Assembly: GCA_016213015.1 (NCBI GenBank)
Contig: JACRCE010000038.1
Span: 1-51,887 of the forward strand
Length of the DNA stretch: 51,887 nt
Origin: Deltaproteobacteria bacterium
GTDB lineage: Bacteria > Desulfobacterota > GWC2-55-46
Direction of reading: 5' to 3'
The translations under genes were made by a program, and so were the position numbers. Below are positions 10,105 through 46,089 of this stretch, piece by piece; positions within the stretch are counted from its first letter, which is position 1; each line of letters opens with the position of its first letter. Under the pieces are notes generated by a model. It saw only the letters and a list, made by a program, of their open reading frames with translations, was not told the DNA's origin and did not search any database.

Positions 10105-10566
10105 ATGAGACTTACCTCGCATGTCATACAGGCAACGGCAACGTCAGCCGTAATGACGCAATTTTTAACGCCTATTGAAAACGTGGCGCTGTTTTTGAGC
10201 ATCATCTTCATTGACGTTGACCATTACTTCGACTTCGTCGTGGTCTGTAAAAGGTTCGGCGTCCGGGACATGTTTAAGTATCATGGCTGGGTTTGGCATT
10301 TCAGGGACAATGTCTACGGCATAAGCCTCTTTCATACGGCCGAGGCGTTCATACTCCTTTTCGCGCTCGGTTTCGCGTCGCACTATTTCTGGATAATCCT
10401 GGCTGGCTTCCTATTCCATTTTATTTTTGACCTGATATTCCTGACGCGTCATCGCATAATATTTAACCGGGCCTTTTCAATAATCGAATACGTTATAAGA
10501 AAAAGGAATCCCGCGTCAAAGGGGTATCCCGTTCCCGATGATGGTTTCTGGAACGGCGGGCGCTGA
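10105..10566 (+). CDS. Small polytopic membrane protein, possibly DUF457/YdjM-like hydrolase
   Basis: A 153-aa protein with about four hydrophobic segments. Residues ~33-42 (IIFIDVDHYF) give a D-x-D-H pattern, and paired His appear in HGWVWHF, in SLFHTAE and in LFHFIFDL, spaced as in membrane-embedded metal-dependent hydrolases of the DUF457/YdjM group. This assignment is tentative. No ribosome site is obvious. It precedes the decayed radical SAM gene and is not clearly part of either neighbouring operon. Confidence 0.55.
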   Translation: MRLTSHVIQATATSAVMTQFLTPIENVALFLSIIFIDVDHYFDFVVVCKRFGVRDMFKYHGWVWHFRDNVYGISLFHTAEAFILLFALGFASHYFWIILAGFLFHFIFDLIFLTRHRIIFNRAFSIIEYVIRKRNPASKGYPVPDDGFWNGGR

Positions 10567-10617: not shown

Positions 10618-10913
10618 ATGAAAAAAATCAATCCGGATACATTCAAAGACGAAGCGGAACTTCTTGAATATCTAAAAAAACTCCCGCGTTATAGAAATAC
10701 GAGGCTGAAATCCGCTTACTGCAGGGTCTTTGGCTTAGGCAAACCTATACGGGTTATCACTCGTGCTTTCCGCGACGCTTATCATGGATAACATGGCGGA
10801 TATGGAGTATTTGGCCGAGTCGGCAAAGGAAAAGAACTGCAGGCTACAGTACAGCATTTTGTATAATGCCGATAATATAAACGACGACAGGCTCATCATG
10901 TCCGAAAATAAGC
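10618..10913 (+). pseudogene. Remnant of a radical SAM gene, internally deleted and cut at the 3' end
   Basis: An ATG at 10618 opens a frame (MKKINPDTFKDEAELLEYLK...) matching the first ~60 residues of the intact radical SAM protein encoded at 15030-16181. After about 10762 homology jumps, in another frame, to that protein's residues ~194-242 (shared blocks DMEYLAE and QYSILYNAD). The lost segment (~residues 61-193 of 383) includes the CxxxCxxC iron-sulfur site, so no activity is possible. The second fragment is continuous in frame with the SDR gene that follows. Both parts have the same orientation, opposite to the intact copy. Confidence 0.88.
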
Positions 10914-11710
10914 GCTCGACTTTTAACGACGCTAATGCCGTACGGTTTAGGAGTTGTGTCGTCATCGGCTCCTCACGAGGACTCGGCGCGGCCTTGGTGG
11001 ATGGATTATTGGAACGCGGCTATACCGTAACCGGAGTGGCAAGGACAATGCCGGATGCCGAAAGGCTTGAGCGATGGAACGCTTCAAGAAGATACAAACA
11101 TTTTATCGCGGACATCTCATCGCAAGACGGTCTGACGGCCGTCAAGGAAATTTCGAAAGATCTTCCTCTTGAGCCCGTGTGCGTCATTTTTAACGCCGCG
11201 TCGGTGGAAACGGACGTGCATGGCCGTTTAATAGATCATGATGCGCTGACAAGGGTCAATAGCACGGCTATCGTCGGTCTCGGCAATACGACGGCGGCCT
11301 TCCAGAGTCATCTCACGACGCGCGGCGGATATTTCGTCGGCATTTCCTCCTTTAGCGCCTTTGCGCCGCCATTCAACGAACCGAGAGCCGCATACCCGGC
11401 ATCAAAGGCGTATCTTGATATGTTTTTGCGGTCTTTGCGTATTATATGGCGCGATAAAGTGACAGTGGTAACCGTACATCTCGGTCATCTTGGGAGAGGG
11501 GATTTCTTTTTGTCGGGAATGCTGGTGTCCGATTATGACAAAACCGCGAATAAGATAATCACTGGGATAACCGGTAAAAAAACGCCGCGCGAGATAAATT
11601 ACCCATTCATCTATTGTCTCGTATACCGTTATATCCTATCCTGTATACCTGATTTTTTGTACATAAAAGCGGCGGTCATATTTAACCGCGTGAAGAGAAA
11701 TAAAACGTGA
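10898..11710 (+). CDS. Short-chain dehydrogenase/reductase
   Basis: A Rossmann-fold SDR (~270 aa from the ATG at 10898). The nucleotide motif GSSRGLGAA is at residues ~20-28, an NAA motif follows in VIFNAAS, the catalytic Ser is probably in GISSFSAF and the YxxxK motif is YPASK. The PG motif after the active site is replaced by HLGHLGRG, unusual for the family. The open frame extends upstream to 10763, but those ~45 residues come from the decayed radical SAM gene, so I chose ATG 10898. The TGA stop overlaps the GTG start of the next gene (GTGA). Its substrate is unknown; the context suggests a lipid or sugar intermediate. Confidence 0.82.
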   Translation: MSENKRSTFNDANAVRFRSCVVIGSSRGLGAALVDGLLERGYTVTGVARTMPDAERLERWNASRRYKHFIADISSQDGLTAVKEISKDLPLEPVCVIFNAASVETDVHGRLIDHDALTRVNSTAIVGLGNTTAAFQSHLTTRGGYFVGISSFSAFAPPFNEPRAAYPASKAYLDMFLRSLRIIWRDKVTVVTVHLGHLGRGDFFLSGMLVSDYDKTANKIITGITGKKTPREINYPFIYCLVYRYILSCIPDFLYIKAAVIFNRVKRNKT

Positions 11711-13128
11711 GAACGGATATAATATTTTTCCAGCAGTACGCTGTCCCATACTTCGGCGTGTTGTCCCTTGCCGCGCATCTGAACTGCAAGGGTTACAAGA
11801 CCGATGTCTTTATCGAGTCTATTGATAAAATAGACGCCTTGAAAGGATTAAACCCCAGGCTCATCGGCATATCCGTAATGTCCCCTGAGCACAACTGGCT
11901 CGTCGGGGTTATAAAGACGATAAAAAAAGAGATGCCAAGCGCAACGATTATCGTAGGCGGTATCCATGCAATGCTCTACCCGAATGATATACTGTCGGAA
12001 ACCGAAGCCGATTTGGTATGTAACAGCGAAGGGGAAGAAGTGCTGTCGAAGGTTTTGGCCGAGCTTGACAAGCCTGTGCGGGATTGGTCGAATATAACGG
12101 GGATTGTATACAGAGATAAGGATAACAATATACGCTCCAATGAGATGGCGGATGTGGTTCCGTATGATGACGTTGTCATCGAGGACAAGGGCTTTTATTA
12201 CAATAGATACCCCGATCTTGCAAAAGATACCGTTCACAGGTTCATCTCAAGCCGTGGCTGTCCGTATAAGTGCAGTTTCTGCTATAATGCCGTCATTAAA
12301 GACGCGCTTAGGGGTAAAGGCATATACGTCAGGCAAAAGAGCGTTGAAAACTTCGTTAATGAGATATTGCTTGAGTGCAAACGCCACGAGGTCGAGTCCA
12401 TTTTTTTCTATGACGATCTTTTTACCTTCAATAAGAAGTGGCTACGCAAGTTTCTTGAGAGATATAAAAAAGATATAAAGATACCTTTTATGTGCACCAC
12501 CCGCGCCAATCTTATGGATGATGAGATAGCCGGTCTTTTGGCCGAGGCGGGTTGCAGAACCATAAGTTTCGGCATTGAGACGGGCAATTATCAGATTAGA
12601 AAGAATGTGCTCAACAAGGGCGTTTCCGATGATGAAATAATAAGATGCGGCAGCATACTTAATAAACACGGCATCAAGGTTCAGACGGCCAACATGTTTT
12701 GTCTGCCGGATGAGACGTTGAAAGACGCGCTGAAGACGATAGAACTCAATATACTGGCCAAGACCAACTACGCATTTACGGCGCTTTTTATGCCGTTCCC
12801 CAATACCGAGATAACTAATTATTGCATCGGTAAGGGCTATGTTAAATTCGGCTATTCGCTGAAAGACGTCCCGTATTCCTTCCTTAATCACAGTGTGCTC
12901 GATCTGCCGGATAAGGAAGCAATAATGAATGTCCATCGTCTCGCGTTCTTTTTCATAAAATATCCGAGGTTTTTTAAGTTGGCGAAACACGCCGTTAGAT
13001 ACAGGTTTTTAACGCCTTTATTTAAGCGCGTATTCCTTTTAAGCAATCTGCTTCGTCACAAAGAAGAGAGGGGAATATCGCTTTGGTCAGCAATCAGATA
13101 CGCATGGAGGTTGCGCGGCTCATTTTAG
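11707..13128 (+). CDS. B12-binding-domain radical SAM protein
   Basis: A 473-aa protein: an N-terminal cobalamin-binding-type Rossmann domain (~1-140, with IVGGIHAMLYP as the GG loop but no DxHxxG His), then a radical SAM barrel with C185-x3-C189-x2-C192 (SRGCPYKCSFCYN), a GIETG strand and a C-terminal ~90-residue basic/hydrophobic tail. Such proteins catalyse methylations, ring rearrangements or C-C bond formation on lipids and natural products. The GTG start overlaps the SDR stop, and the methyltransferase follows 18 nt downstream, so SDR-radical SAM-methyltransferase form one operon. The substrate is unknown. Confidence 0.87.
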   Translation: MRTDIIFFQQYAVPYFGVLSLAAHLNCKGYKTDVFIESIDKIDALKGLNPRLIGISVMSPEHNWLVGVIKTIKKEMPSATIIVGGIHAMLYPNDILSETEADLVCNSEGEEVLSKVLAELDKPVRDWSNITGIVYRDKDNNIRSNEMADVVPYDDVVIEDKGFYYNRYPDLAKDTVHRFISSRGCPYKCSFCYNAVIKDALRGKGIYVRQKSVENFVNEILLECKRHEVESIFFYDDLFTFNKKWLRKFLERYKKDIKIPFMCTTRANLMDDEIAGLLAEAGCRTISFGIETGNYQIRKNVLNKGVSDDEIIRCGSILNKHGIKVQTANMFCLPDETLKDALKTIELNILAKTNYAFTALFMPFPNTEITNYCIGKGYVKFGYSLKDVPYSFLNHSVLDLPDKEAIMNVHRLAFFFIKYPRFFKLAKHAVRYRFLTPLFKRVFLLSNLLRHKEERGISLWSAIRYAWRLRGSF

Positions 13129-13146
13129 GGATTAGCCGCCACGAAA

Positions 13147-13878
13147 ATGAAAACAAACTACAAATATGAAAACCAGAAACAGTTCTGGGAGTATGCCGGC
13201 ACTATCGGCTACGGCAAGGCTATATTCGCCAATCCAACGGTAGAGCGGCATATTATAGAAAAGCAGTGGCGTCTCGCCATTGAGACCGCGAAAGAGATAG
13301 GGGTTGATGACGGCGCTCGTGTTTTAGAACTTGGGTGCGGAGACGGTGAGTTCGCCAATAACGTCCTAACTCGTATTTATAAGAGCATAGACGCCTATGA
13401 TGTCGCGGCTTCCGCCATTGATAGCGCCAAGACTCATGACAAATCCGGCAAGGTCAATTTTGTCGTGCGTGACGTTACCGATATTTCTTATGCAAAAGGA
13501 GATTCGTGGGACTGCGCCTTTCTTATCGGTTTTTTACATCACGTGAAGGGATTTACCCCTAAGATAGTTGAGCGTCTGGCCGAGGTCTGTCCAAAGGTGG
13601 TAGTGCTTGATCCGAACGGCGACAACCTCATAAGAAAGTTCCTTGAATTAACGCCGTCATACAGGCGGGCAGGCGAGGACAGCTTCAAGCTTAAAAAGCT
13701 CATTAAGATATTTGAGGATAACGGATACAAGACAACGATCGTAAAGAGAACGACTCTGGTTCCTTCCATGCTACCTGAAAGATTCTTTGGGTTTGTCAAA
13801 TGGATAGAGCGTATAGTCGAGGCTAATCGTGTTTTAAGCAGGCTTTGTTCCTCGTATGTGATAGGGTTTGAACGTTAA
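13147..13878 (+). CDS. Class I SAM-dependent methyltransferase
   Basis: A 243-aa protein with SAM motif I VLELGCGDG (residues ~59-67), an acidic residue ending motif II (IDAYD) and a post-motif VVLDPNGDN. The N-terminus FWEYAGTIGYGKA resembles small-molecule methyltransferases of polyketide/saccharide clusters rather than rRNA enzymes. It is the last gene of the SDR-radical SAM operon and ends 7 bp before the convergent membrane-protein gene. It probably methylates the product of the adjacent radical SAM/SDR steps (inference). Confidence 0.8.
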   Translation: MKTNYKYENQKQFWEYAGTIGYGKAIFANPTVERHIIEKQWRLAIETAKEIGVDDGARVLELGCGDGEFANNVLTRIYKSIDAYDVAASAIDSAKTHDKSGKVNFVVRDVTDISYAKGDSWDCAFLIGFLHHVKGFTPKIVERLAEVCPKVVVLDPNGDNLIRKFLELTPSYRRAGEDSFKLKKLIKIFEDNGYKTTIVKRTTLVPSMLPERFFGFVKWIERIVEANRVLSRLCSSYVIGFER

Positions 13879-13885
13879 GCGGTTT

Positions 13886-14416
13886 TTATTCCAGCAACGG
13901 CAGTTTTATTGCCCTTCCCCAGAAGTTTACCGCCTTGGCCGCATAGTAGAGCAGCTTCCCATCTATAAAATATTTGCCTTCATATTTTTTAAGCTGTCTC
14001 ATGGAGATGAGCCTTTCAACGCGCACGTCGAACATATCCTTTGCGTTGTAGATGGCCTCGACCTCCGTAATCCTCAATTGCTCGTTAGCCTTGATTTCAT
14101 GCAGTATACGGATGCGTCTGGCGGTCTCGCTCATATTGAAGATATGAAAGTAACAGTACCCGATAGCGGAATATACGATAAGCGAGTATAGGGATGCTGC
14201 AAGCGTTGTCGTTCCCATCGGCTGTCCGTTCATGACGTAGAGCCGGAATAAAATGCCGGTTGGGATATACCCCGCGAGTACGGCGTAGCCGCATATAATC
14301 TGGCGCGAAAAATCGTGGATAAAACGGCTGATAATCCTAGATAGCGTTATGTGCGCCGCAAGGATCATAAAAGGAGAGGCCGCAAGTAAAACGATTATCT
14401 TTATCGTCGTCTCCAT
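13886..14416 (-). CDS. Unknown membrane protein with C-terminal winged-helix-like domain (B)
   Basis: A 176-aa protein that I do not recognise. Residues ~1-100 hold three to four transmembrane segments; the C-terminal ~75 residues (from ETARRIRILHEIKANEQL) have a helix-helix-helix-wing pattern ending YEGKYFIDGKLL, like a winged-helix domain. I chose the ATG at 14416, 1 nt after the stop of the upstream partner, rather than the upstream frame at 14473. The pair shares the same architecture (membrane part plus winged helix), suggesting two subunits of one membrane complex or membrane-bound regulators. Confidence 0.7.
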   Translation of the reverse strand: METTIKIIVLLAASPFMILAAHITLSRIISRFIHDFSRQIICGYAVLAGYIPTGILFRLYVMNGQPMGTTTLAASLYSLIVYSAIGYCYFHIFNMSETARRIRILHEIKANEQLRITEVEAIYNAKDMFDVRVERLISMRQLKKYEGKYFIDGKLLYYAAKAVNFWGRAIKLPLLE

Positions 14417-14417
14417 T

Positions 14418-14951
14418 TTATCCGATGCCCGCCGGGAGTCCGAGGAGCGAGCGCAAAAAACTAAAAATGCCAAGCAATAAGTTGCCCCTCTTTGTCAGTT
14501 TATATCGTCCGTCCGTTATCGTTACGAAGTTCGTATCTATTAAATCCTTAAGCCTCGGTTCAAGCATCTTCGACGTATTAAAGTTTGCCTTAAGTTTTTC
14601 ATGTCCGACGCCTTTGGGCGCCGCCGAGGCGACTATAAGGAGCATAGTGAGCGTGGGGCAGTTGGCTTGGAGGGCGGGGTAGGATAAGATATATCCGCCG
14701 GTAAGCGAGTAATGGAAAAGCAGTATTGCCAGAAAGTCCACAATGACATGTAATGGCGGACCGTTAAAGATCGTACCGGTGCGGTTAATGGCCAATGTCG
14801 CCGTTGCAAGTAATATGGCGGGAATTACAATGAAAATCAGCACGAGCGCTCCCATATAATTTTTGGGAGGAGCGCGTCTCCAAACGAGCACATGGATGAG
14901 GAGGCTTATGCTAAAAAGGATTATCCCGGTTAAAGGAACGGAGAGATTCAT
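14418..14951 (-). CDS. Unknown membrane protein with C-terminal winged-helix-like domain (A)
   Basis: A 177-aa protein that I do not recognise. Three or four transmembrane segments (residues ~5-110) are followed by a winged-helix-like tail: a helix HEKLKANFN, a recognition-like helix SKMLEPRLKDLIDTNF and a wing VTITDGRYKLTKRG, closing with a GIFSFLRSLLGL amphipathic helix. It is the first of a two-gene unit with the next membrane protein, lies between a methyltransferase and a radical SAM gene, and is transcribed in the same direction as the latter. Confidence 0.7.
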   Translation of the reverse strand: MNLSVPLTGIILFSISLLIHVLVWRRAPPKNYMGALVLIFIVIPAILLATATLAINRTGTIFNGPPLHVIVDFLAILLFHYSLTGGYILSYPALQANCPTLTMLLIVASAAPKGVGHEKLKANFNTSKMLEPRLKDLIDTNFVTITDGRYKLTKRGNLLLGIFSFLRSLLGLPAGIG

Positions 14952-15029
14952 TTATTTCATGCTATGGTAATCAAGCCGCCGTTGTCAAGATAAAAGGTGA
15001 GGGAGGTAAGTACAATCCACGCCATGCGC

Positions 15030-16181
15030 TTATCCTTTGATTTTTAGCGCGTCGGCCAACTGTATAAGAAGTATGTTTAATATATTGCGAGGGCTTAAAT
15101 TCATAAGCGCGTTATGCTCGTTATTAGCCAAAAAAGAGCAGTGTCTGCAATCGTTCTTATCGTGGCATGATCTGATTGCTCCTGATACGCCAAGTTCTTT
15201 GATATTCGGCGCGTCGTCATAGTTATTAGCCCAGCATGTTACAACCCTTCCATCTGCGTCTATCTGATACTTCAAACTGCCGTGATAACATGGTATCAAA
15301 TTTTTTTTATTCACGGCGTCCATATCTTTGTCTCGATAGAGGTTTTTTTCATAAAAATTATCCGGCCATTCGATGGCGGTTGTTAGAACATTTTCTGAAT
15401 AATATATCGGGTATCCTTGTTTTTTCAGGTTTAATATTTTTTTCGTGATCGCTCTAATTTCCTCATCCGACATTACCAGATTTTTATCTGTTATTTCGTC
15501 GGCATTATAAAGTATGCTGTATTGAACCCTAATTTTTTTGGCGGTTGCTAGTTCAGCTAAATATTCCATGTCATTCATGTTGGATTTTGTCAGGGTTGCG
15601 TGAATAGCTAATGGGATATTGTTATGTGAGACTACATCAATCGCCTCCATTACCTTTTTATGGCAACCGGCCCCTCTATTTTTATCGTTGTTCTCTTCTC
15701 TGCCGTCAAGGCTGATGCAGATCGTATCAACGCATTTTATCTCCTGAATCCTTTTTGGCAAGAGATAGCCGTTGGTGTTAAAGCTTATGTAAAAGCCTCT
15801 ATGTTTGGCGTAGTTTATGATTTCACCTATATCCTTACGCAGAAGAGACTCACCCCCGTGGATAGTGAGAAGCCTGGTGCCCAAACTCTTTAATTCATCG
15901 ATTATTTTTATCAGCTCTTTTGTTGAATAATCCTTATAATGACCGCGAGCGCCATACTCTCCGTAGCAATAGACGCATTTCAAGTTGCACGAATTATTGG
16001 TAACAAGCACGATAAATATCGGCTTCATGATCCCAGTGATTCTGCAGTATGCAAGGCTCAAAAAAAAAGCCAATCGTCTGTAGGCCGATCTAATTTTTGT
16101 ATTTTTGTATCTCGGAAGGCGTTTTAATTGTTCCAATAAAGCCGCGTCGTCTTTGAAGGCATCCAAACTTATTTTTTGCAT
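15030..16181 (-). CDS. Radical SAM / SPASM-type protein
   Basis: A 383-aa protein. Residues ~1-50 form a basic, partly hydrophobic N-terminal region. The radical SAM core begins at CNLKCVYC (C65, C69, C72), has a GGE motif (109-111) and a substrate-side SFNTNGYLLP strand. The C-terminal part has further cysteines (CYHGSLKYQIDADGRVVTC, then CHDKNDCRHC) as in SPASM domains that hold auxiliary 4Fe-4S clusters. Family members mature peptides or modify sugars and lipids. It is followed by the two membrane/winged-helix genes in the same direction. A degraded, internally deleted copy sits at 10618-10913. Confidence 0.87.
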   Translation of the reverse strand: MQKISLDAFKDDAALLEQLKRLPRYKNTKIRSAYRRLAFFLSLAYCRITGIMKPIFIVLVTNNSCNLKCVYCYGEYGARGHYKDYSTKELIKIIDELKSLGTRLLTIHGGESLLRKDIGEIINYAKHRGFYISFNTNGYLLPKRIQEIKCVDTICISLDGREENNDKNRGAGCHKKVMEAIDVVSHNNIPLAIHATLTKSNMNDMEYLAELATAKKIRVQYSILYNADEITDKNLVMSDEEIRAITKKILNLKKQGYPIYYSENVLTTAIEWPDNFYEKNLYRDKDMDAVNKKNLIPCYHGSLKYQIDADGRVVTCWANNYDDAPNIKELGVSGAIRSCHDKNDCRHCSFLANNEHNALMNLSPRNILNILLIQLADALKIKG

Positions 16182-16201
16182 GGGTCGTTTCTTTCCTTAG
16201 C

Positions 16202-16280
16202 GGGCCGCTGAAAAAGGCGCATCTGCTTTGTTGTCCCCCGCTTAAAGCATGCGAGGGCAGGCTCGTCGTTCAGAATTGCG
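16202..16280. repeat. Partial copy of the GGCCGCTGAAAAAG element
   Basis: It starts GGCCGCTGAAAAAGG and shares CATCTGCTTTGTTGTC and a CTCGTCGTT block with the element at 42608-42759. About 27 bp (CCCCGCTTAAAGCATGCGAG region) are inserted relative to that copy, and the rest is replaced by the 70-bp palindrome starting at 16281. Confidence 0.75.
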
Positions 16281-16533
16281 CCCAGCGCCACTTTGGATTA
16301 CGAAAGCATGTTGCTTTACAAACTTCCTCGTGCAACAAGGTGGTGCTGGGCTCGTTCTTCGCTTCCCTATTCCATAGAGACCTCCTCTGCGAACGTCCAC
16401 GCCCGAGATGCTCCGCGACTTCTTCCTCCAGAATCCTCTGTATGAACTTGTGAACTTCCATCCCGGCGAACTCTTCCAGCCTCTGCCGGTTTACCCTTGA
16501 CTCAACGGTCTCTTCGGTGGTGTAATTACACAT
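16270..16533 (-). pseudogene. Truncated transposase N-terminus (IS256/mutator-like)
   Basis: Only ~61 residues remain of what looks like a mutator-type transposase N-terminus (RQRLEEFAGMEVHKFIQR, then LEEEVAEHLGRG). After residue 61 the frame runs into the 70-bp palindrome at 16281-16350 and stops at 16270; the DDE catalytic domain is gone. A strong ribosome site (AAGGAGA) precedes the ATG, so the 5' end still looks functional. Assignment to IS256 rests on the helix pattern and is moderate. Confidence 0.65.
16281..16350. repeat. 70-bp palindromic repeat, copy 1
   Basis: Ends CCCAGCGCCACTTTG and CAAGGTGGTGCTGGG are near-perfect inverted repeats. A second 70-bp copy lies at 40306-40375, inside a different repeat. 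Here it truncates the transposase reading frame. Confidence 0.88.
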
Positions 16534-16681
16534 GGCGGCTGTCTCCTTTTTTGGGCGCTAAGCCCGGTTCTTGGTCGAACCTGAAGGATACACCGCCTTT
16601 AACTTATTTACACACCTTTTTAGAATACCCCTTTTTAGGATACCTCACAAAAGCCGCATATTCATTGGGTCTCAAATTAAC

Positions 16682-16710
16682 TTGAAACAATATCCATGCA
16701 GTGCTATATT
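16682..16710 (+). promoter_or_regulatory. Sigma-70 extended -10 promoter of the radical SAM/YfhO operon
   Basis: TTGAAA (16682-16687) is followed after 17 nt by TGC-TATATT (-10 at 16705-16710). It lies in the AT-rich 16534-16802 leader, which holds no gene, about 93 nt before the ATG at 16803. Confidence 0.65.
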
Positions 16711-16802
16711 AATAAATTATCTTATCACACTTCATCGAAGCGCATCAAGTTTTTTATATTTTAGCAGAGCTGATACGGCTCTTGCTTTGGAGGGTATTCG
16801 GC

Positions 16803-18290
16803 ATGAGTAATTTTACAAACAAGATACTTTTTGTAATCGTCGACAATTATAAAACTGAACGCCCCGGCGTTCAGATACTCTCGTCTATTGCGTTACAGGA
16901 AGGGTACGAAAGGGATATATTGATAATCAACTCGTTATCGGTTGAGGCTAACCTAAAGAGAGTTCTGGATTTTAAGCCGCAAATTGTCGCTTATAGCGGC
17001 ATGACGTATGAACATACAATTCTTCAGGAATTTAACAGGCTCTTAAAAACCCAATCAGGCATCAGTTTTTTGTCAATCTTCGGCGGCCCTCATTACACGT
17101 TTAACCCGGAAGAAATATTTAACGACAACGGTATCGACATTGTATGCCGAGGCGAAGGTGAAGTCGCATTTCGTAGTTTTATACAGGCGCTGAGAGATAA
17201 TCTTGAATACCGTAGGATTGATAAATTATGGGTGCGTGACGGCGACGAGGTGATCAAAAACCCAATCGGCTTATTGATTCATGATATGGACACCGTGCCG
17301 TTTATGGATAGAGATTTAATTCCTCTGGATGATTTGGCCACCGATCATTTTCAAGGCAAAAGTTTGTTATGCATGATTGGCAGAGGATGTCCGCACAAGT
17401 GTACTTATTGTTTTAACTTGGAATACAATACGCTTTTCGGCGATTCGCGCATATACCGACATCGTAGCGTTGACAATATTATCGAGGAATTAAAGCAACT
17501 AGTCAAACGATTTGACCTCGACATTTTTCTGTTTCTCGATGATTGTTTCTCATATTTGCCAAGAACGTTTATTGAGGAGTTTAGCAGAAGATACAAGGAG
17601 GAGATAAATAAGCCTTTTTCCGCTCAGTTTCGTCCTGAACTTGTCAGAGAAGATACGATAGTAATGTTGAAAGACGCTGGTTTATATCTTGTGCCCATCG
17701 GAGTAGAATGTGGAAATGAGACGGTCGCCAATAACATATTGCAACGTGGGAGGATTACCAACCAGCATATAATCAATGCGTTTGACATGCTTCATAAGCA
17801 CAAACTCAAAACATGGTCGCTGAATCTTCTGGCTCTACCGGTGGAAGACCCTTTAAGTATAGATATCGAAACAATTAAATTGAATATGCGGCTAAAACCT
17901 TATTGGGCTCAATTCAATATTCTTGTCCCAATACCAAAGACACCTATCTGGGATTATATCGTCAAGAACGGCTATATTGATGAAAAATCTTATCTGAAGT
18001 TCGATAAACTGCCGTCAGGTTTTACGGAAACCAAGCTGGTTTTTAAGAATCGCCGAGTTGCCGATAGAGTAACCAATCTACACAAGTTTGCCGGCATTGT
18101 CGTTAAATTTCCATTCTTGTTGCCGCTCGTAAGGGCGCTTATTCTTCTTCCGCCGAATAGGATATATCAATATATATTCTTTTTATGGTATGGCTATTGG
18201 AAAACGATAGGCACCTACAACGCGCCTTTTTCATTCAAGTTGATTGTTAATGGATTGAGGGCGATAAGGCAATATCTAAAAAGACATTGA
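16803..18290 (+). CDS. B12-binding-domain radical SAM protein
   Basis: A 495-aa protein: a cobalamin-binding-type N-terminal domain (~1-150, FGGPHYTFNP as the GG loop), radical SAM cysteines C196-x3-C200-x2-C203 (GRGCPHKCTYCFN), a GVECG strand and a C-terminal ~100-residue tail with hydrophobic stretches that may sit at the membrane. I chose the ATG at 16803 because GGAGG lies 9 nt upstream; the longer frame begins with TTG at 16782. It shares architecture with the proteins at 11707 and 42778 and precedes the YfhO-like gene by 3 nt, so they are co-transcribed. A lipid or glycolipid substrate is a reasonable guess. Confidence 0.86.
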   Translation: MSNFTNKILFVIVDNYKTERPGVQILSSIALQEGYERDILIINSLSVEANLKRVLDFKPQIVAYSGMTYEHTILQEFNRLLKTQSGISFLSIFGGPHYTFNPEEIFNDNGIDIVCRGEGEVAFRSFIQALRDNLEYRRIDKLWVRDGDEVIKNPIGLLIHDMDTVPFMDRDLIPLDDLATDHFQGKSLLCMIGRGCPHKCTYCFNLEYNTLFGDSRIYRHRSVDNIIEELKQLVKRFDLDIFLFLDDCFSYLPRTFIEEFSRRYKEEINKPFSAQFRPELVREDTIVMLKDAGLYLVPIGVECGNETVANNILQRGRITNQHIINAFDMLHKHKLKTWSLNLLALPVEDPLSIDIETIKLNMRLKPYWAQFNILVPIPKTPIWDYIVKNGYIDEKSYLKFDKLPSGFTETKLVFKNRRVADRVTNLHKFAGIVVKFPFLLPLVRALILLPPNRIYQYIFFLWYGYWKTIGTYNAPFSFKLIVNGLRAIRQYLKRH

Positions 18291-18293
18291 GCC

Positions 18294-20750
18294 ATGCCGA
18301 TAGGTACATACCGAGCCATCATGATTAAATTTGATATGCGAAATCTACCGCGGCTGATTATTCTCTCAGCGCTTATTTCATATGTGGCGCTCTACTACGC
18401 GCTCTTGATTGGGAAAGAGATGGTAACCCATGACAATCTTGTATGCTATGGCGCCTATCATTATTTCGCGGAGAGTCTTGCAAATTGGATATTTCCGTTA
18501 TGGGATCCATATCTTATAGCGGGAACCCCTTTTTATCAAAATACACCTTTGGTCGGCCTGCTTGATCCGGTTGTTATCATTACGGCGCTTCTGGGCAATT
18601 TATTAGGTATATCGCATTTGACAAGTTATACCTATGTCATTATCGTAAGGGTAGCGGTATTCATAATCGGCGCTTATTACCTCTTTAAGTATGCTTCCGG
18701 ATGCCGTTTAAGCGCCGCCGTCTCCGCGATCGTTCTTTTGTTTGCCTTACCAGGCAATTTTAGGGAACAGGTCGTTTTGCTGGCATTCCTTACTCCTTTT
18801 GCCATGCTTTTTCTTCTGAAGTTCTTTAAGAAAGAAAAGGCAACGGAGAAATACATTTATTTTTTCTTGTTTGCGATTGCGTCCGGCATAACCATGAATG
18901 TTTTTATTCCGGCGTATTTTCTCTTTAATATTATCGTTTTTTTTATAGTAGCAATGATCATTGGGTTGATCGAAGCAAAGAGGACCGTAGTATGTTTTCG
19001 GATGAAATTTTTGCCGCTCATTATATCTTTTATCCTTCTCGTTTCGCTTATGTCCGCGGCGTCGTTTGCAATTTATGCCGATTCAAGGGGGCATGACGGC
19101 GAGCTATTCCCGAGCTTAAGGATAGTGCAGAAAAACGGGGGCATATATAAACAGATGGTCGCTTCCGACGTCGGCAACGACGCGCTCTCTCCTAAATTTA
19201 CAAAACAACTCGGCGTCTACAGCTCTTGGGGCAATCTGTTAAGCCTCGCATACCCTGATCTATGGAAGGCGTATTTTCAGGAGTATAACGCTCCAAAGGC
19301 GAATGACTTCATATCCGAGGCGTTTCAATACATAGGCATCATGCCGTTTATAATAGCCTTGATCGGGCTTATCTATTCAAAAAGCCGCTGGCGCATCCTT
19401 GCGCTCGTCATGCTCGTTGTCATTTCAATTAACATGATAAGCTGGGAGGGGGTGCACAATCGCCCGCCCAATATCCTCCAAGAGGCATTCAATACGATAT
19501 TCCCGTTTCTTAAGATGATAGAGGTAAGGGAGGTATTCAGCGGATTTTTTCTATTATGGCTCTGCCTGCTATTGTCTTTAGGGCTTCGCATATTTTTTGA
19601 CAGCGTGAACTTCAGGGCCTTTGTCGATATGAAATTAAGGGCGCTCCTAATGTTGCCGGCAATGCTTGTCGCTGGTAAAGTCATAGTATCTTATGTGTAT
19701 TTGCGTCCGTCCTTGTATCTGTCGCCGGTTGACGTTACGGCGTTTATCGTTATCGGCGTCTTCGCTGTGCTGATATATTTATATAAGAAGAACATACTGA
19801 CGCATGCGCGTCTTTGCGCGGTAGCGCTTGCAATAACGTTGGTTGACATAGGTTATTATAATCTGTCAATGAAGCCGTATGTTTTGGTTCCGAACACCCT
19901 CGCTCCGGCGCTTGAGGCCAAATTAAACAAAGACGCCGGTTTTGCGTATTTCAGAATCCCTTTCGTACTCGCCAACCTCGCGTTCATCGAGCCTATGCTC
20001 AAGGTAAAAGGCGCGATGTCGCGCGGCAATAACCACCATTTATTTACAACAAAGAGATACTACGATTATTTTACGCATCTGCCTTTGGAAAAGCAGTTCG
20101 TACTTTCAGGCGTGGATACGCCTATAATCAGATTTTTTTCCAAGACGGACGCCCGTATATTTAAGGACAGGTCGGACGTTCTGACTTACATGTCAAATGC
20201 AAATGAAGAAGAGTTGAGAAATAATCTCTCGATAGAACAAGCCGTTGACAACGGCGCGCAAGGCGGCCGCAAAGGCAATGGCCTTGTCCTTACAAGTCTC
20301 GATCAGTTCCCTGACCTTCCCGATCTGAATCCGCAAAACATCGTTACGGCATATAAAAAGCATATGGCGGCGAGCGTCTTGGGCGAGGCCGGTAATCCCG
20401 AAAAACAGATGACTACCGATCTGTCCACCATAGTGGTAAAGGATTTTTCTCCGAACGGAGTGACCGTGGACGTGAATAACGCGCAAGACGGGTATCTGTA
20501 TTACAACGACGGCTACAGTAAATATTGGGATGCCTATGATAACGGGAAAGAGACGCCGATCAATATCGCCAACTATAACTTTAAGGCCGTCTTTTTGCCA
20601 AGGGGCGAACATAGAGTCGTCTTTGTTTATAACCCGTGGCGCTATAAGGTCGGTTTGCTCGCGTACGCGACTGGCTTGTTCATCTCCGTTATCCTCGCGG
20701 CCTTTTTCTTTTTCAAGTCGCGCGCGAAGACGGAGCAAAAAAGTAGATAA
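18294..20750 (+). CDS. YfhO-like large membrane protein (GT-C-type fold)
   Basis: An 818-aa protein with about 12-13 transmembrane helices and a C-terminal periplasmic domain followed by a last helix and a basic tail. The early loop DNLVCYGAYHYFAESLANW..PLWDPY and the C-terminal pattern YLYYNDGYSKYWDAYDNGKETPI...RGEHRVVFVYNPW match the YfhO/PF09586 family, where YfhO of Gram-positives helps glycosylate lipoteichoic acid. It probably acts on a lipid-linked sugar at the outer face of the inner membrane. The start is 3 nt after the radical SAM stop; a second ATG at 18321 is possible. It is the last gene before tRNA-Arg. Confidence 0.78.
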   Translation: MPIGTYRAIMIKFDMRNLPRLIILSALISYVALYYALLIGKEMVTHDNLVCYGAYHYFAESLANWIFPLWDPYLIAGTPFYQNTPLVGLLDPVVIITALLGNLLGISHLTSYTYVIIVRVAVFIIGAYYLFKYASGCRLSAAVSAIVLLFALPGNFREQVVLLAFLTPFAMLFLLKFFKKEKATEKYIYFFLFAIASGITMNVFIPAYFLFNIIVFFIVAMIIGLIEAKRTVVCFRMKFLPLIISFILLVSLMSAASFAIYADSRGHDGELFPSLRIVQKNGGIYKQMVASDVGNDALSPKFTKQLGVYSSWGNLLSLAYPDLWKAYFQEYNAPKANDFISEAFQYIGIMPFIIALIGLIYSKSRWRILALVMLVVISINMISWEGVHNRPPNILQEAFNTIFPFLKMIEVREVFSGFFLLWLCLLLSLGLRIFFDSVNFRAFVDMKLRALLMLPAMLVAGKVIVSYVYLRPSLYLSPVDVTAFIVIGVFAVLIYLYKKNILTHARLCAVALAITLVDIGYYNLSMKPYVLVPNTLAPALEAKLNKDAGFAYFRIPFVLANLAFIEPMLKVKGAMSRGNNHHLFTTKRYYDYFTHLPLEKQFVLSGVDTPIIRFFSKTDARIFKDRSDVLTYMSNANEEELRNNLSIEQAVDNGAQGGRKGNGLVLTSLDQFPDLPDLNPQNIVTAYKKHMAASVLGEAGNPEKQMTTDLSTIVVKDFSPNGVTVDVNNAQDGYLYYNDGYSKYWDAYDNGKETPINIANYNFKAVFLPRGEHRVVFVYNPWRYKVGLLAYATGLFISVILAAFFFFKSRAKTEQKSR

Positions 20751-20793: not shown

Positions 20794-20870
20794 GCCCCCG
20801 TAGCTCAGATGGATAGAGCAACGGATTCCTAATCCGTGTGCCGGACGTTCGAATCGTCTCGGGGGCACCA
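20794..20870 (+). tRNA. tRNA-Arg (anticodon CCU)
   Basis: A 77-nt cloverleaf: acceptor GCCCCCG pairs with CGGGGGC, D-arm AGCTC..GAGC, anticodon stem ACGGA/TCCGT with loop TTCCTAA (anticodon CCU at 34-36, reading AGG), T-arm with TTCGAAT, discriminator A and an encoded CCA end. AGG is common in the genes of this window. Confidence 0.97.
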
Positions 20871-33583: not shown

Positions 33584-34990
33584 ATGGAAAAAGACAATAT
33601 CGTAATAGTGGACGATGAAAAGGACATGCGCGAGTTCCTTGAGATAATGCTCAGGAAGGAGGGCTACGACGTTCATGGTTTTTCATCCGGGCAGACCGCC
33701 CTTGACTATTGCAGGGACTCGCGCTGCGACCTTGCGATAACCGATTTGAAGATGCCCGGCATGAGCGGAGTCGACTTCCTAAAGGCGCTCAGGGAGACGA
33801 GTCCCGACGCGCCGGTGATCATGATAACCGCTTACGCCTCGGTTGACACCGCGATAGAGGCGATGAAGGCGGGCGCTTACGACTACTTCACGAAGCCCTT
33901 CAAGGTTGACGAGATAAAGCTCAATATCAAAAAGGCCCTGCGGCTTAAAAGCCTTGAGAATGAAAACGTTCTCCTTAAAAATGACTTGAAGTCTCGGTTC
34001 GGTTTTTCAGGGATAGTCGGCACGAGCAGGAAGATGAACGAGGTCTATCAACTCATAATGAGCGTCGCAAGCACGCGCTCCAGCGTGTTCATAACCGGCG
34101 AGAGCGGCACGGGCAAGGAATTGGCGGCGCGCGCCATACACAATGAGGGCGACAGGCGGGATGCGCCCTTTGTCGCCATAAACTGCGGCGCCATACCGGA
34201 GAATCTCATCGAGAGCGAGTTGTTCGGACACCAGAGGGGCGCTTTCACCGGCGCGGTTTCAAACAAGGAAGGGCTGGCCGAGCGGGCAAACGGCGGGACG
34301 CTGTTTCTTGATGAAATAACGGAACTGCCGTTGCATCTTCAGGTAAAGCTCCTGCGGTTCATTCAGGAGCGCGCGTTCAGGCGGGTCGGCGGCACCGCCG
34401 ACATAGCCGTTGACATCAGGCTTGTCGCGGCATCGAACAGGGACATAGAGGCCGAGGTAAAGGCCGGCAGATTCAGGGAGGATCTGTTTTACAGGCTCAA
34501 CGTCATAAGATTATCGCTCCCGGCCTTGAGGGACAGGAAAGAGGACATCCCTCAGCTGGCGCGGTATTTCCTTGAAAAATACAGTAATCCGCTTGGCAAG
34601 GACATAAAGGGCATATCAGAGCCGGCTATGCGTTGTCTTGTGGATTACGGCTACTCCGGCAACGTCAGGGAGCTTGAAAATATTATGGAGAGGGCCGTAA
34701 CTCTGGAAGGTTCGTCTTTGATTACATCGGAGAGTCTGCCGCCCAACATCCTCCATGGACAATCGTCCGCTCAACCATCGCTTGAGTCGTCATCTAATCG
34801 GGCCTCGATTGCAGTGCCCGACAGCGGTATCGACCTTGAAAAAGCCATGGAGGAGATCGAAAGAGCCGCGATAAACGACGCGCTAAGGAAGGCGGGCGGC
34901 GTAAAGACAAAGGCCGCCGAACTGCTTGGGCTGTCCTTCAGGTCGATGAGATACAAGCTGAGCAAATACAGGCTTACGGATAATGACTGA
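33584..34990 (+). CDS. pilR: PilR-type sigma-54-dependent response regulator
   Basis: A 468-aa NtrC-family activator: receiver domain with phospho-acceptor D54 (ITDLKMPG) and a KP switch, AAA+ domain with Walker A GESGTGKE (172-179) and the sigma-54 contact loop GAFTGA (219-224), then a C-terminal Fis-type helix-turn-helix (KTKAAELLGLSFRSMRYKL). It would drive the -24/-12 promoter of the first pilin. The ATG lies only 6 bp after the CCGTGA palindrome and has no classical ribosome site. Its 3' end overlaps the next gene by 8 nt. Confidence 0.95.
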   Translation: MEKDNIVIVDDEKDMREFLEIMLRKEGYDVHGFSSGQTALDYCRDSRCDLAITDLKMPGMSGVDFLKALRETSPDAPVIMITAYASVDTAIEAMKAGAYDYFTKPFKVDEIKLNIKKALRLKSLENENVLLKNDLKSRFGFSGIVGTSRKMNEVYQLIMSVASTRSSVFITGESGTGKELAARAIHNEGDRRDAPFVAINCGAIPENLIESELFGHQRGAFTGAVSNKEGLAERANGGTLFLDEITELPLHLQVKLLRFIQERAFRRVGGTADIAVDIRLVAASNRDIEAEVKAGRFREDLFYRLNVIRLSLPALRDRKEDIPQLARYFLEKYSNPLGKDIKGISEPAMRCLVDYGYSGNVRELENIMERAVTLEGSSLITSESLPPNILHGQSSAQPSLESSSNRASIAVPDSGIDLEKAMEEIERAAINDALRKAGGVKTKAAELLGLSFRSMRYKLSKYRLTDND

Positions 34991-36917
34991 TTACGCCAAT
35001 CATAAGAGTTCGTCCGAAACAACGCCATCCACACGCAAAGAGGTTATATCAGGCAAAACGCTTGCGCTTATAATGCTTCTTTTTGTCGTCGGATTCCTCA
35101 TATATTCCGAGGTCATGAAAGGGCCGTTCCTGTATGATGACGAGCCTTACATAGTAACGAACGCGCTTATATACAGGTTGGATAATTTTTTTGTCCTGCC
35201 GTTCAACAGGTACGTCACCTTCCTGAGTTTTGCCGTTAATTACGCGCTCACCGGGCTTATCCCGTTCGATTTTCGCATGGTGAACGTGCTGATTCATATC
35301 GTCAATTCAGTCTTGGTTTATGCGTTTACAATACAAATCTTCAGGACGCCGCGGATGAGCGGACATGGACGGACGCCAACAAACGGCAACGCCTATGCAA
35401 TCGCGGCAATGGCCGCGCTTATCTTCGTCTCCCATCCGATACAAACGCAGGCCGTCAGTTACATAACCCAGCGCTTCGCCTCGCTTGCAACGCTTTTTTA
35501 TCTCCTCTCGATTGTTTCATACCTCGACTATCGCCTGCATGAACAACAAGCGCCGCAATGGAGGCGCATCCCGCCATACTGCTTGAGCCTGTTTTTCGCG
35601 GTTGTCGCGCAGTTTACAAAGGAGATAAGTTTTACCCTGCCGGCCGTTGTGCTGCTCATCGAGGCCGTTTTTTTCGATGCGCGGGACGAGGCGGGAGGGT
35701 TTAAGAAAAGGATATGGAGACTTGCTCCATTTCTCGCGGTCTTTCTTGTGTTGCCATTTGTCTTTTTGGCGTCTCCGTTGCTCGGCATAAGCCACGACGG
35801 GGTCGCCGAATCAATCAGGCGCGCGCAGGTCGAGGAGTTGCAAAATCTTTCATCGCAGGACTATCTCATCACCCAGTTCAGGGTCATCGTAGAGTATCTG
35901 AGGCTTCTTGTCTGGCCCGCGGGCTTGAGGCTCTACTACGAATTCCCAGCCTACAAGAGTTTTTTCGAGCCGACGATACTCCTGTCGTTTATCTTTCTTG
36001 CCTTGATATTTTCCCTTGGCGCGTATCTGTGTTTTGCGCGGAGGGGGTCGGACAAAACCTTGGCTCCGTTTATCGGTTTCGGCATCCTCTGGTTTTTTAT
36101 CACCGTCTCGGTCGAGTCGTCGATAATACCGATACGCCACGTCATCTTCGAGCACAGGCTGTATCTTCCGAGCGTCGGGGCCATATTAGCCGCTTCCGGC
36201 TTTCTTTATCAGCTCTTTGTTTTTCTTTGGCGCGGACAAGAACGAATATCGCGGGCGTGGTGGACGCTCGCAGCAGTAATAACACTGGCGCTGTCCATTA
36301 CGGCATATAATCGGAATATCGTATGGGTGGACAGACTCGTTTTCTGGAACGACGTCGTTGCCAAGGCGCCTCAAACCTCAAATGCGTATGTAAATCTTGG
36401 TTCCGCTTATGCTAATAAGGCCATGTACGTCAATGCGCTTGAGAGTTATGAAAAGGGCCTGAAACTCGATCCGAGTCATGCCGGCGCTTATGCGGGCATG
36501 GGCGAGGCTTACGCCATGATCGGGAGGTTGGATGAGGCTCGCGATGCATGTCTCAAGGCTATTAAGATGGCGCCCAACCTGATTGGAGCGTACCAGAACC
36601 TCGGCATGGTGTTATACCTGCGTAAGGATTATGAAGCCGCCATCATCAACTTTCGGAAGGCGTTGGCGATTGCCCCTTCCAGCGTCGGTATAACAAAGAA
36701 TCTTGCGGCAACCCTTGAGACTCTTGGCCGTTTCGACGAAGCAATAAGCCTTTACGAAAATTTGTTGAAAAAGATGCCGCGCCGGAGTGATGTCTATTTT
36801 GATATAGGCGGTCTTCTTGTGAAGTCAGGCAGAGTCAAAGAAGCGGGGGCTTACTATAAGGAAGCAGTCAGGCTTGAGCTGAGGTACGCCTCGCTTGTCC
36901 CCGATAATCTTCGATAG
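34983..36917 (+). CDS. TMTC-like GT-C membrane protein with TPR repeats (paralogue 1)
   Basis: A 644-aa protein: about ten transmembrane helices in residues ~20-450, then about five TPR units (~465-635; e.g. AYVNLGSAYANKAMY, AGMGEAYAMIGRLDEA). The loop after helix 1 has YDDEPYIVTN, equivalent to the Asp-containing first loop of GT-C glycosyltransferases, and the HPIQTQAVSYITQRFASL motif is the conserved TMTC/DUF1736-type signature. Eukaryotic TMTCs are O-mannosyltransferases. The 8-nt overlap with pilR (ATGACTGA) and position before the pilins suggest a role in pilin O-glycosylation (inference). Confidence 0.8.
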   Translation: MTDYANHKSSSETTPSTRKEVISGKTLALIMLLFVVGFLIYSEVMKGPFLYDDEPYIVTNALIYRLDNFFVLPFNRYVTFLSFAVNYALTGLIPFDFRMVNVLIHIVNSVLVYAFTIQIFRTPRMSGHGRTPTNGNAYAIAAMAALIFVSHPIQTQAVSYITQRFASLATLFYLLSIVSYLDYRLHEQQAPQWRRIPPYCLSLFFAVVAQFTKEISFTLPAVVLLIEAVFFDARDEAGGFKKRIWRLAPFLAVFLVLPFVFLASPLLGISHDGVAESIRRAQVEELQNLSSQDYLITQFRVIVEYLRLLVWPAGLRLYYEFPAYKSFFEPTILLSFIFLALIFSLGAYLCFARRGSDKTLAPFIGFGILWFFITVSVESSIIPIRHVIFEHRLYLPSVGAILAASGFLYQLFVFLWRGQERISRAWWTLAAVITLALSITAYNRNIVWVDRLVFWNDVVAKAPQTSNAYVNLGSAYANKAMYVNALESYEKGLKLDPSHAGAYAGMGEAYAMIGRLDEARDACLKAIKMAPNLIGAYQNLGMVLYLRKDYEAAIINFRKALAIAPSSVGITKNLAATLETLGRFDEAISLYENLLKKMPRRSDVYFDIGGLLVKSGRVKEAGAYYKEAVRLELRYASLVPDNLR

Positions 36918-36926
36918 GTGATCATA

Positions 36927-38819
36927 ATGAGTTCATCCGGAACAACGCCATCCACCCGCAAAGAGGTCATATCAGGCAGAGCGCTTGCGCTCATAGCGCT
37001 TCTCTTTGTCATCGGATTCCTGATATATTCCGAGGCCATGAAAGGGCCGTTTTTATATGATGACGACGCCTATCTGTTGAAGAACGCGCTCATATACAGG
37101 TTGGATAATTTCCTTGTCCTGCCGTTCAACAGGTACGTTACCTTTCTGAGTTTTGCCGTCAACTACGCGATCAGCGGGCTGATCCCCTTTGATTTCCATG
37201 CGGTGAACGTCTTTATACATGTCGTCAATTCCGTTTTGGTTTATGCGTTTGTGATACGAATCTTCAGAACGCCGCGTATGGGCGGACATGAACGGACATC
37301 GTCAAACGGCAAGGCTCATTCAATCGCGGCAATGGCCGCGCTCATCTTTGTCTCTCACCCGATGCAAACGCAGGCCGTCAGTTACATAACTCAGCGCTTT
37401 GCCTCTCTTGCCACGCTGTTTTATCTCCTTGCCGTGGTTCTTTACCTCGACTACAGGTTGCATGAGACGGGCGCGCCGCAATGGAGGCGCTTCCCGCCAT
37501 ACTGCCTGAGCCTATTTTTTGCGGTTGTGGCGCAGTTTACAAAGGAGATAAGTTATACCGTGCCGGCAATAGTCGTCCTGCTTGAAGTTGTTTTTTTTGA
37601 TGCGCGCACCGAAGTGGGAGGGGTAAGGAAAAGGCTTTTGAGACTCCTTCCGTTTGTCGCGATTTTTGCCGTTCTGCCCTTTATCTTTCTCACGGCGTCG
37701 TGGATCGACTCGAGCGCTGGAGCGGCGAATATCGTTAGAAATCTACAGGTCGCGGAACTGGTCAGCCTGTCGTCATACGACTATCTTATGACCCAGTTCA
37801 TGGTTGTCGTAATGTATTTAAGGCTTCTCGTATGGCCGGCCGGACAGCGGCTTTTATATGAAATCCCGCTTTATACGAGTTTTTTCATACCTTCCGTATT
37901 GATGTCCTTCGTCTTTCTTGCTTCCATATTTTCCATCGGCGTGTATCTTTGTTTCGCGTGCAGGAGCGTCTCCGCGTCCTTGAGGCCGTTGATCGGTTTC
38001 GGCATCCTGTGGTTTTTCATTACCATATCGGTTGAGTCGTCAATAGTCCCGATACGGCATCTGATCTTCGAACACAGGGTCTATCTGTCGAGTGCTGGGG
38101 CGTTTATGGCCGTTTCCGCCTTTATCTATCTTCTCTTGAATTATCTTCATAGCCGCTTAAACCGGAATGAATGGATGCCGCGCATCTGGCGCCTACTCAT
38201 ATTCGTAATAGTGTCGGCGCTGTCCATTACGGCATATAACCGGAACATGGTATGGACGGACAGGCTCGTCTTCTGGAAGGAGGTTGTCGCCAAGGCGCCT
38301 AAAACGGCGCACGCATACCAAAATCTCGGCTCAGTCTATTTCGATAGAGGGAAGCATGAGGAGGCGATTGATAATTTCAAGAAGGCGATTGAACTCATGC
38401 CTGACGGTCCAAAGGGTTACACCGCCATGGCCGGAGCACTGGCCATGCTCGGCAGGTTGGATGAGGCCGAAGATGCCTGTCTCACGGCAATCGAGCTTTC
38501 GCCTGATGGGTATGAAGGCTACGTAAATCTCGGCGCGGTGTTCTTGTTGCGTAACGATTATGAAGCGGCCATGGTCAATTTAGAGAAGGCGTTGGCCATT
38601 GAACCCAACGAGGTCGCGGCGATCAGGGATATGGCCATAATATTGGAGAAAACCGGCAGGCTTGACGAGGCGATCGAGCGCTATAAAGAGGCGTTGAGGA
38701 TAGCGCCTCATAAGCTTGAGTTTTATACGGCGATAGGAGACCTGCTTATGCGGAAAGGCTTAAATGAAGAGGCAGGCGTTTATTTAAAGGAGGCGGAAAG
38801 GCTCAAGTCGCGCTATTGA
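36927..38819 (+). CDS. TMTC-like GT-C membrane protein with TPR repeats (paralogue 2)
   Basis: A 630-aa tandem paralogue of the preceding gene, nearly identical in blocks (TTPSTRKEVISG near the N-terminus; NRYVTFLSFAVNYA; HPMQTQAVSYITQRFASL; AQFTKEIS) but divergent in the middle loops and TPRs (~460-625). YDDDAYLLKN keeps the acidic first loop. I chose ATG 36927, with AGGTGAT 6 nt upstream overlapping the previous stop; a GTG at 36918 is also in frame. Tandem duplication with divergence suggests different acceptor or sugar specificities. Confidence 0.8.
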   Translation: MSSSGTTPSTRKEVISGRALALIALLFVIGFLIYSEAMKGPFLYDDDAYLLKNALIYRLDNFLVLPFNRYVTFLSFAVNYAISGLIPFDFHAVNVFIHVVNSVLVYAFVIRIFRTPRMGGHERTSSNGKAHSIAAMAALIFVSHPMQTQAVSYITQRFASLATLFYLLAVVLYLDYRLHETGAPQWRRFPPYCLSLFFAVVAQFTKEISYTVPAIVVLLEVVFFDARTEVGGVRKRLLRLLPFVAIFAVLPFIFLTASWIDSSAGAANIVRNLQVAELVSLSSYDYLMTQFMVVVMYLRLLVWPAGQRLLYEIPLYTSFFIPSVLMSFVFLASIFSIGVYLCFACRSVSASLRPLIGFGILWFFITISVESSIVPIRHLIFEHRVYLSSAGAFMAVSAFIYLLLNYLHSRLNRNEWMPRIWRLLIFVIVSALSITAYNRNMVWTDRLVFWKEVVAKAPKTAHAYQNLGSVYFDRGKHEEAIDNFKKAIELMPDGPKGYTAMAGALAMLGRLDEAEDACLTAIELSPDGYEGYVNLGAVFLLRNDYEAAMVNLEKALAIEPNEVAAIRDMAIILEKTGRLDEAIERYKEALRIAPHKLEFYTAIGDLLMRKGLNEEAGVYLKEAERLKSRY

Positions 38820-38919
38820 GTAACGCAGGCGGCGCTGACAATAAATGGCGCTCGATACTGACAAAAAATGGCTTTAGCCTCTCGTATGTTTGTTTTATCT
38901 ATTTTACGTGCATGAGTTA

Positions 38920-38961
38920 GGAAGCTTCCGATTAATTCCCAAGGCCGTCATTCTCGCGTAG
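38920..38961. repeat. Degenerate fragment of the ~140-bp repeat, copy 4
   Basis: GGAAGCTTCCGATTAATTCC is followed by CGTCATTCTCGCGTAG, the arm version found only as the right (inverted) arm of copies 3, 5, 6 and 7. The right half is missing. The remainder of 38820-39079 holds no gene; part of it may contain PilR binding sites. Confidence 0.7.
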
Positions 38962-39079
38962 TGTAGTGTCGCATGTCTTAGAAAAATCAAGGAGTTACGA
39001 TATTGCGGAGCCTGCCCAGAGCGTAGCGAGGGGTCTCTTGCCACGTTATGCATCAGAAGTTGCCGAATCAAACTTTTAT

Positions 39080-39096
39080 ATGGCATGACAGTTGCA
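39080..39096 (+). promoter_or_regulatory. Sigma-54 (-24/-12) promoter of the first pilin gene
   Basis: ATGGCATGACAGTTGCA: GG at 39082-39083 and GC at 39094-39095, exactly 10 nt apart, with TGGCA and TTGCA boxes matching the RpoN consensus except one C-to-T. The predicted start is near 39107, about 65 nt before the pilin ATG. Consistent with a PilR target. Confidence 0.88.
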
Positions 39097-39171
39097 TCTA
39101 TATAAGTTAAAAGCTTACCGCGTAACAGGCTCATGGTAAAAACGTTGGATAATCAAAACAAGGAGGCGCAC

Positions 39172-39597
39172 ATGTTACAACAGATTCTTAAAGGATTGAA
39201 GAAGAAGGATGAAGGCTTTACCCTGATCGAGTTGCTGATAGTCGTGGCCATCATAGCGATATTGGCGGCCATAGCCATCCCGCAATTTTCAGCCTATCGG
39301 GAAAGAGGCGTAAGGGCCTCGATGGTTGCGGACGCAAGAAACATAGCGACGCAGGAAGAGGCATTTTTTACAGACAACAGCACCTACTCCACTCTAACCA
39401 TAGCCACGGCAGGAGGGCAGGCAACATTCGGCACCACGACCATAAAGGCAAGCAAAGGTAATACGATTGCCTCAACCACTACCGGCACAACCTACAGCAT
39501 CGTCGTTACAAACAGCGCCGCAGGCACTGTAGGCATGCAGTCTTTGACGTTCTGGAACACAGGAATATGCAGTTATGCCGACAACACTGCATGTTGA
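39172..39597 (+). CDS. pilA: Type IVa major pilin (first copy)
   Basis: A 141-aa prepilin. The leader MLQQILKGLKKKDEG is cut before F16 (G|FTLIELLIVVAIIAILA), with Glu5 of the mature protein present. The hydrophobic N-terminal helix is followed by a Thr/Ser-rich body (many TTT, TST and NT runs) and a short C-terminal disulfide loop (C-SYADNTA-C). I chose ATG 39172 (AAGGAGG 8 nt upstream) over 39133. It is preceded by a -24/-12 promoter and followed by a hairpin terminator. The Thr/Ser-rich surface is a plausible O-glycan acceptor. Confidence 0.95.
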   Translation: MLQQILKGLKKKDEGFTLIELLIVVAIIAILAAIAIPQFSAYRERGVRASMVADARNIATQEEAFFTDNSTYSTLTIATAGGQATFGTTTIKASKGNTIASTTTGTTYSIVVTNSAAGTVGMQSLTFWNTGICSYADNTAC

Positions 39598-46086: not shown

Positions 46087-46089
46087 GGG

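Follow-up and report, generated by a model that had tools for sequence, protein, structure and literature searches.

The window (the whole stretch of DNA analyzed here, 51,887 nucleotides) contains a locus rich in radical SAM genes whose GC content is 44.6% over positions 10618-20750, compared to 53.5% across the remaining window. The initial annotation had listed here an SDR, two B12-fold radical SAM enzymes, one SPASM-type radical SAM enzyme, a methyltransferase, a pair of membrane proteins with winged helix and a YfhO-like protein. All of these genes and their domains were confirmed in place by Pfam and NCBIfam scans. However, a YdjM-like gene, a decayed SPASM copy, a scar and the tRNA-Arg(CCT) gene had been overlooked. 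The features are as follows:

10105-10566, plus strand: YdjM-like small membrane protein (tentative name), left edge of the locus
10618-10912, plus strand: decayed copy of a SPASM-type radical SAM gene with an internal deletion, in frame with the SDR ORF
10763-11710 (ORF; likely start ATG 10898), plus strand: SDR (PF00106, E 5.5e-17)
11707-13128, plus strand: B12-fold radical SAM protein 1 (PF02310, PF04055), 4 bp overlap with the SDR gene
13147-13878, plus strand: SAM-dependent methyltransferase (PF13649, E 1.2e-10)
13886-14416, minus strand: membrane/winged-helix protein B; its start is probably 14416, right where gene A ends
14418-14951, minus strand: membrane/winged-helix protein A (AF2 model, Foldseek)
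15030-16181, minus strand: SPASM-type radical SAM protein (PF04055, E 2.2e-25)
16182-16781, no strand: scar with a dispersed repeat and a probable mobile-element end fragment
16803-18290, plus strand: B12-fold radical SAM protein 2 (PF02310, PF04055), GGAGG upstream of the likely ATG 16803
18294-20750, plus strand: YfhO-like membrane protein, putative GT-C glycosyltransferase (PF09586, E 2.3e-11)
20794-20870, plus strand: tRNA-Arg(CCT) (ARAGORN, Rfam), right-hand positional marker

The left group is on the plus strand and comprises, in order, the YdjM-like gene, the SPASM remnant, the SDR, B12-fold protein 1 and the methyltransferase. The middle group, on the minus strand, contains the SPASM-type gene and winged-helix genes A and B; the right group presents the 600-bp scar, followed on the plus strand by B12-fold protein 2, the YfhO-like gene, the tRNA-Arg(CCT) and NapC. 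The genes thus form convergent and divergent groups and not a single operon. The grouping is beyond chance: the GC contrast is accompanied by a gene set and order that partly recur in related genomes. A single scan of the genome contigs returned one locus. Apart from the YfhO-like protein, Pfam and NCBIfam scanning of the island genes detected neither a glycosyltransferase nor a nucleotide-sugar gene or flippase, and no export, chain-length or polymerase genes either. No riboswitch was detected, the only Rfam match above threshold being the tRNA-Arg(CCT).

The name of the YdjM-like protein is tentative since its PF04307 support is indirect: the protein has no direct Pfam match, and of the eight sequences in its alignment, six hit PF04307 (E<=0.1). 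Homologues with 58-60% identity immediately precede SPASM genes in G010 and G018 (L052, L053), which belong to another genus of the same family, and a further one adjoins a YfhO fragment in G007 (L121). The SPASM remnant aligns with the intact protein over residues 1-58 and about 188-241, at 48-60% identity, its middle and end being missing, and is most similar to the SPASM proteins of the window and of G051, a genome from another family of the same class. The likely start codon of the SDR falls within this remnant. Sequence inspection showed the SDR motifs GSSRGLG and YPASK, and the SDR of G051 is 42% identical to that of the window.

The best solved relative of B12-fold protein 1 is AprD4 (6fd2, E 6.5e-20). 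This likeness covers the radical SAM core only, and the score with the AprD4 model, 78 bits, falls far short of its cut-off of 500. The only strong orthologue in the phylum set is that of G051 (53% identity); a partial one is present in G058. For B12-fold protein 2, no clear orthologue was found among the relatives searched (best, 35%). The SPASM-type protein carries the CxxxCxxC motif (C65/C69/C72) and five C-terminal cysteines (C298, C316, C339, C345, C348) versus the canonical seven. A 57% orthologue was found in G051. In the maximum-likelihood tree, the proteins of the window and G051 grouped together (100/100), within a clade that includes those of G058, G010 and G018 (99/98). The window protein is thus nearer to that of another family than to the same-site SPASM proteins of its own family, which suggests a horizontal replacement. 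We also considered a tetraether (Tes-like) function; this was rejected since macrocyclic archaeol synthase is no more than a weak match to the radical SAM core (E 8.7e-6).

The low-confidence AF2 model of winged-helix protein A shows three long helices and then a winged helix-turn-helix (overall pLDDT 61.5), and its best Foldseek matches are winged-helix domains (CggR, MarR-type; E about 0.01). Protein A is 35% identical to its G051 copy. Protein B, aligned as family A1, has counterparts with 40% identity in G051 and 43% in L048, a locus from a MAG of an anammox family (PMC9723696). The winged-helix family was found in 7 of 297 phylum genomes, and the genes are paired in the window, L048, L049, L082 and L083. 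They are not always close to radical SAM genes: judged by eye, L082 lies in a pyrimidine and glucan neighborhood. In G030, again judged by eye, winged-helix genes adjoin rmlACD-like genes, and in L048 and G097 they adjoin SPASM and E1-type genes; both settings speak for the surface-glycan reading given below.

The Pfam match of the YfhO-like protein (43.3 bits versus a cut-off of 28.5) is confined to residues 712-789, leaving the N-terminal part unmatched by Pfam. The 14+1 hydrophobic segments (15 helices) are consistent with YfhO; the single-sequence structure model reached a pLDDT of only 39.7. Near-full-length orthologues, with 40-44% identity, are present in G010, G018 and G031.

Two elements were recognized in the scar. 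The first one (about 16205-16378) is a dispersed, palindromic repeat, roughly 100-170 bp long, which has matches at dozens of places in the genome and is predicted to form a strong hairpin; the other (about 16493-16631) is probably the end piece of a mobile element and matches two contig ends at 96%. The ORF 16270-16533 was considered as a piece of an IS256-type transposase and discarded for want of Pfam or NCBIfam support; it overlaps the repeats.

The position of the locus is shared with relatives. The tRNA-Arg(CCT) also adjoins or is near NapC in G010, G018, G009, G017, G023, G028 and G016; in G026, G011 and G004, a NapC homologue was found and no tRNA in the stretch fetched. In G018 and G010 the order YfhO, tRNA-Arg(CCT), NapC is repeated, and upstream there are B12-fold radical SAM, SPASM and SDR genes in a set that differs from that of the window; beyond the site, G010 carries more B12-fold radical SAM, SPASM, YfhO-type and YdjM-like genes. 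In G009, of a sister genus, the tRNA is preceded by GT9, two B12-fold radical SAM genes, GT2, a WecA-like GT4, CapD, Wzz, SLBB/Wza and Wzi. G017, G023 and G028 also have the tRNA, and the genes there look similar in their sizes and N-termini; in G016 the tRNA is present with GT2, B12-fold radical SAM and GT9 genes several genes farther along. We read the tRNA-Arg(CCT)/NapC site as a variable surface-glycan site, although this may be an insertion hot spot whose capsule-type genes in the sister genus are cargo with no relation to the locus. Elements that target tRNA genes seldom lie 5' of their tRNA, and an integrative element was rejected because the locus sits on this atypical side.

A second kind of evidence comes from modules found elsewhere. 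In G051, the SPASM, SDR, B12-fold protein 1 and winged-helix A and B genes are contiguous on one strand, and near this module there are HldE-like, transketolase-half, GT2, second-type SPASM, DegT and methyltransferase genes. Within this sugar cluster lies a PDDEXK_3 protein (L049, 6729-7097). In G058, the SPASM gene has GmhA-like and PMT_2 genes as neighbors. With cut-offs of E<=1e-40 for SPASM and E<=1e-100 for YfhO, both set after viewing the matches, SPASM was counted in 3 of 395 phylum genomes and in 6 of 59 relatives, and YfhO in 5 of the 59, one of them partial; G056 (27% identity, E 5.5e-33) was excluded from the latter count. Four genomes carry both, that is, four of the five with YfhO (hypergeometric p 1.6e-4 including the window and 1.3e-3 excluding it), values that are indicative only because the thresholds are post hoc. 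When one genome per genus was counted and the window was excluded, the association was weak (p 0.027, likewise indicative). Co-occurrence, which had been proposed as a check, is seen for SPASM with YfhO, but it is weak per genus. The idea that the three radical SAM genes and YfhO form a fixed unit was dropped, since their distributions among genomes differ: SPASM, SDR and YfhO travel jointly in some genomes, and SPASM, SDR, B12-fold protein 1 and the winged-helix pair in another, while B12-fold protein 2 has no clear orthologue in the relatives searched.

Comparison with known systems gives partial likenesses. With capsule or O-antigen-type loci the locus shares a fixed chromosomal site whose content varies among relatives, and the sister genus holds Wza, Wzz, Wzi, CapD and WecA-like genes at this very site. 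In the window, by contrast, radical SAM enzymes dominate and there is no Wza, Wzz, Wzi or recognized flippase or polymerase; because export, chain-length, flippase and polymerase genes are absent, we do not class the locus as that capsule type. YfhO proteins are GT-C enzymes acting on cell-wall polymers in Gram-positive bacteria, and in CsbB/GtcA/YfhO systems wall polymers are glycosylated from the outside (PMC8035078). The likeness lies in the YfhO-like C-terminus and the hydrophobic segments, whereas the window has no adjacent CsbB-type GT2 or GtcA flippase, its GT2 (44279-45031) belonging to a separate cluster. AprD4, a radical SAM diol dehydratase, works with a reductase partner (PMC5461906), and the gene of B12-fold protein 1 overlaps an SDR gene.

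Taken together, the locus is real, mosaic and partly decayed, and it is best read as related to the cell surface: with a probability of roughly 0.62, it would be a variable locus for the biosynthesis of a surface glycan (or glycolipid) at a fixed position 5' of the tRNA-Arg(CCT). The gene content, the shared position, the conserved module and some co-occurrence are observed. The proposed lipid, glycolipid or saccharide pathway fits, and its saccharide part finds support in the position and the neighbor genes (capsule-type genes at the sister-genus site, and genes of heptose-, transketolase- and glycosyltransferase-like type close to related modules). The term "undescribed" applies insofar as none of the models or papers we came across places the genes in a known pathway; a literature search linking radical SAM with YfhO or polysaccharide gave nothing relevant. 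It should be noted that the remnant gene and the scar leave room for a partly broken pathway. Counting against the glycan reading are another EPS locus of export/exosortase type on contig C97 of the same genome and the lack, in the island, of a nucleotide-sugar gene, a flippase and any glycosyltransferase other than the YfhO-like protein.

Other explanations must be weighed against it. The locus could be a decaying, horizontally acquired patchwork with no single coherent function, the shared site being an insertion hot spot. The low GC, the truncated SPASM copy, the scar and the differing gene sets of relatives at the same site would fit this view, which we nevertheless regard as unlikely given that the main ORFs are full length, that the SDR and B12-fold protein 1, winged-helix A and B, and B12-fold protein 2 and YfhO are tightly spaced, and that the SPASM-SDR pairing and YfhO are retained across genera. 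We give a similarly low probability to the view that the product is a membrane lipid, of hopanoid-like or another kind, with the B12-fold enzymes acting on its tail or head group. HpnJ edits the sugar head group of a hopanoid (PMC12583986), and HpnJ, BchE and a "ladder" lipid family are among the NCBIfam profiles nearest to both B12-fold proteins, all far under cut-off (HpnJ, the top profile for protein 1, scores 114 bits versus 577.6). However, scans of the island genes with Pfam and NCBIfam gave no clear lipid-synthesis genes, and a hopanoid pathway was rejected because squalene-hopene cyclase was not found in the genome, which is 98.7% complete, by a search that was positive in control genomes.

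SPASM and B12-fold radical SAM enzymes are common RiPP maturases, and SkfB is the nearest solved relative of the SPASM-type protein. A peptide pathway in which these enzymes modify a small unannotated precursor is nonetheless very improbable, since no recognition element, leader peptidase or transporter was matched in Pfam and NCBIfam scans of the annotated genes.

For the surface-glycan reading, we infer the catalytic steps and the product, the sugar-editing steps from family knowledge and neighbor genes. The B12-fold enzymes and the SPASM-type enzyme, together with the SDR, would edit a nucleotide- or lipid-linked sugar, possibly by a radical reaction that removes or rearranges a hydroxyl, with the SDR then carrying out a reduction, by analogy with AprD4 and AprD3 on paromamine. 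The methyltransferase might then cap a group, and the YfhO-like protein would move a polyprenyl-phosphate-linked sugar onto an acceptor at the outer face of the membrane. The winged-helix membrane pair may regulate or scaffold the system, with the winged helix predicted to be cytoplasmic. A broader proposal, which we put forward as rather doubtful, is that sugars edited by radical chemistry, perhaps derived from heptose, build up a kind of surface glycan or glycolipid not described before. It would be made by mobile radical SAM/SDR/YfhO modules that have their own membrane-anchored winged-helix pair and pass between bacterial families. Radical SAM chemistry has been studied mainly on antibiotics, cofactors and peptides; if the surface-glycan reading is right, it would also be a recurrent, exchangeable means of diversifying surface sugars in uncultured lineages. 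In that case, the paired winged-helix proteins could mark such loci for searching.

A second radical SAM cluster is present in the window (40503-49037, minus strand), comprising a radical SAM gene, GT9, a B12-fold radical SAM gene, GT2, the E1-alpha and E1-beta subunits of a thiamine enzyme, a nucleotidyltransferase-like gene and a SPASM gene. It recurs in many genomes of the family and order, the loci checked showing mostly about 52-78% identity, and also in the anammox-family MAG. There, the winged-helix pair precedes a set matching this cluster, which ties the pair to it. Beside the cluster, two large TPR membrane proteins are followed by two pilin-like genes (34983-40129, plus strand), and a link to pilin glycosylation is possible. 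Elsewhere in the genome, contig C55 (L061) carries HddC-like, HddA-like, DegT, epimerase and transketolase-half genes with three B12-fold radical SAM and two PMT_2 genes. Finally, a partial second YfhO-like gene lies near a contig end (L124, contig C95, about 813-2240), with one stop in the matched stretch.
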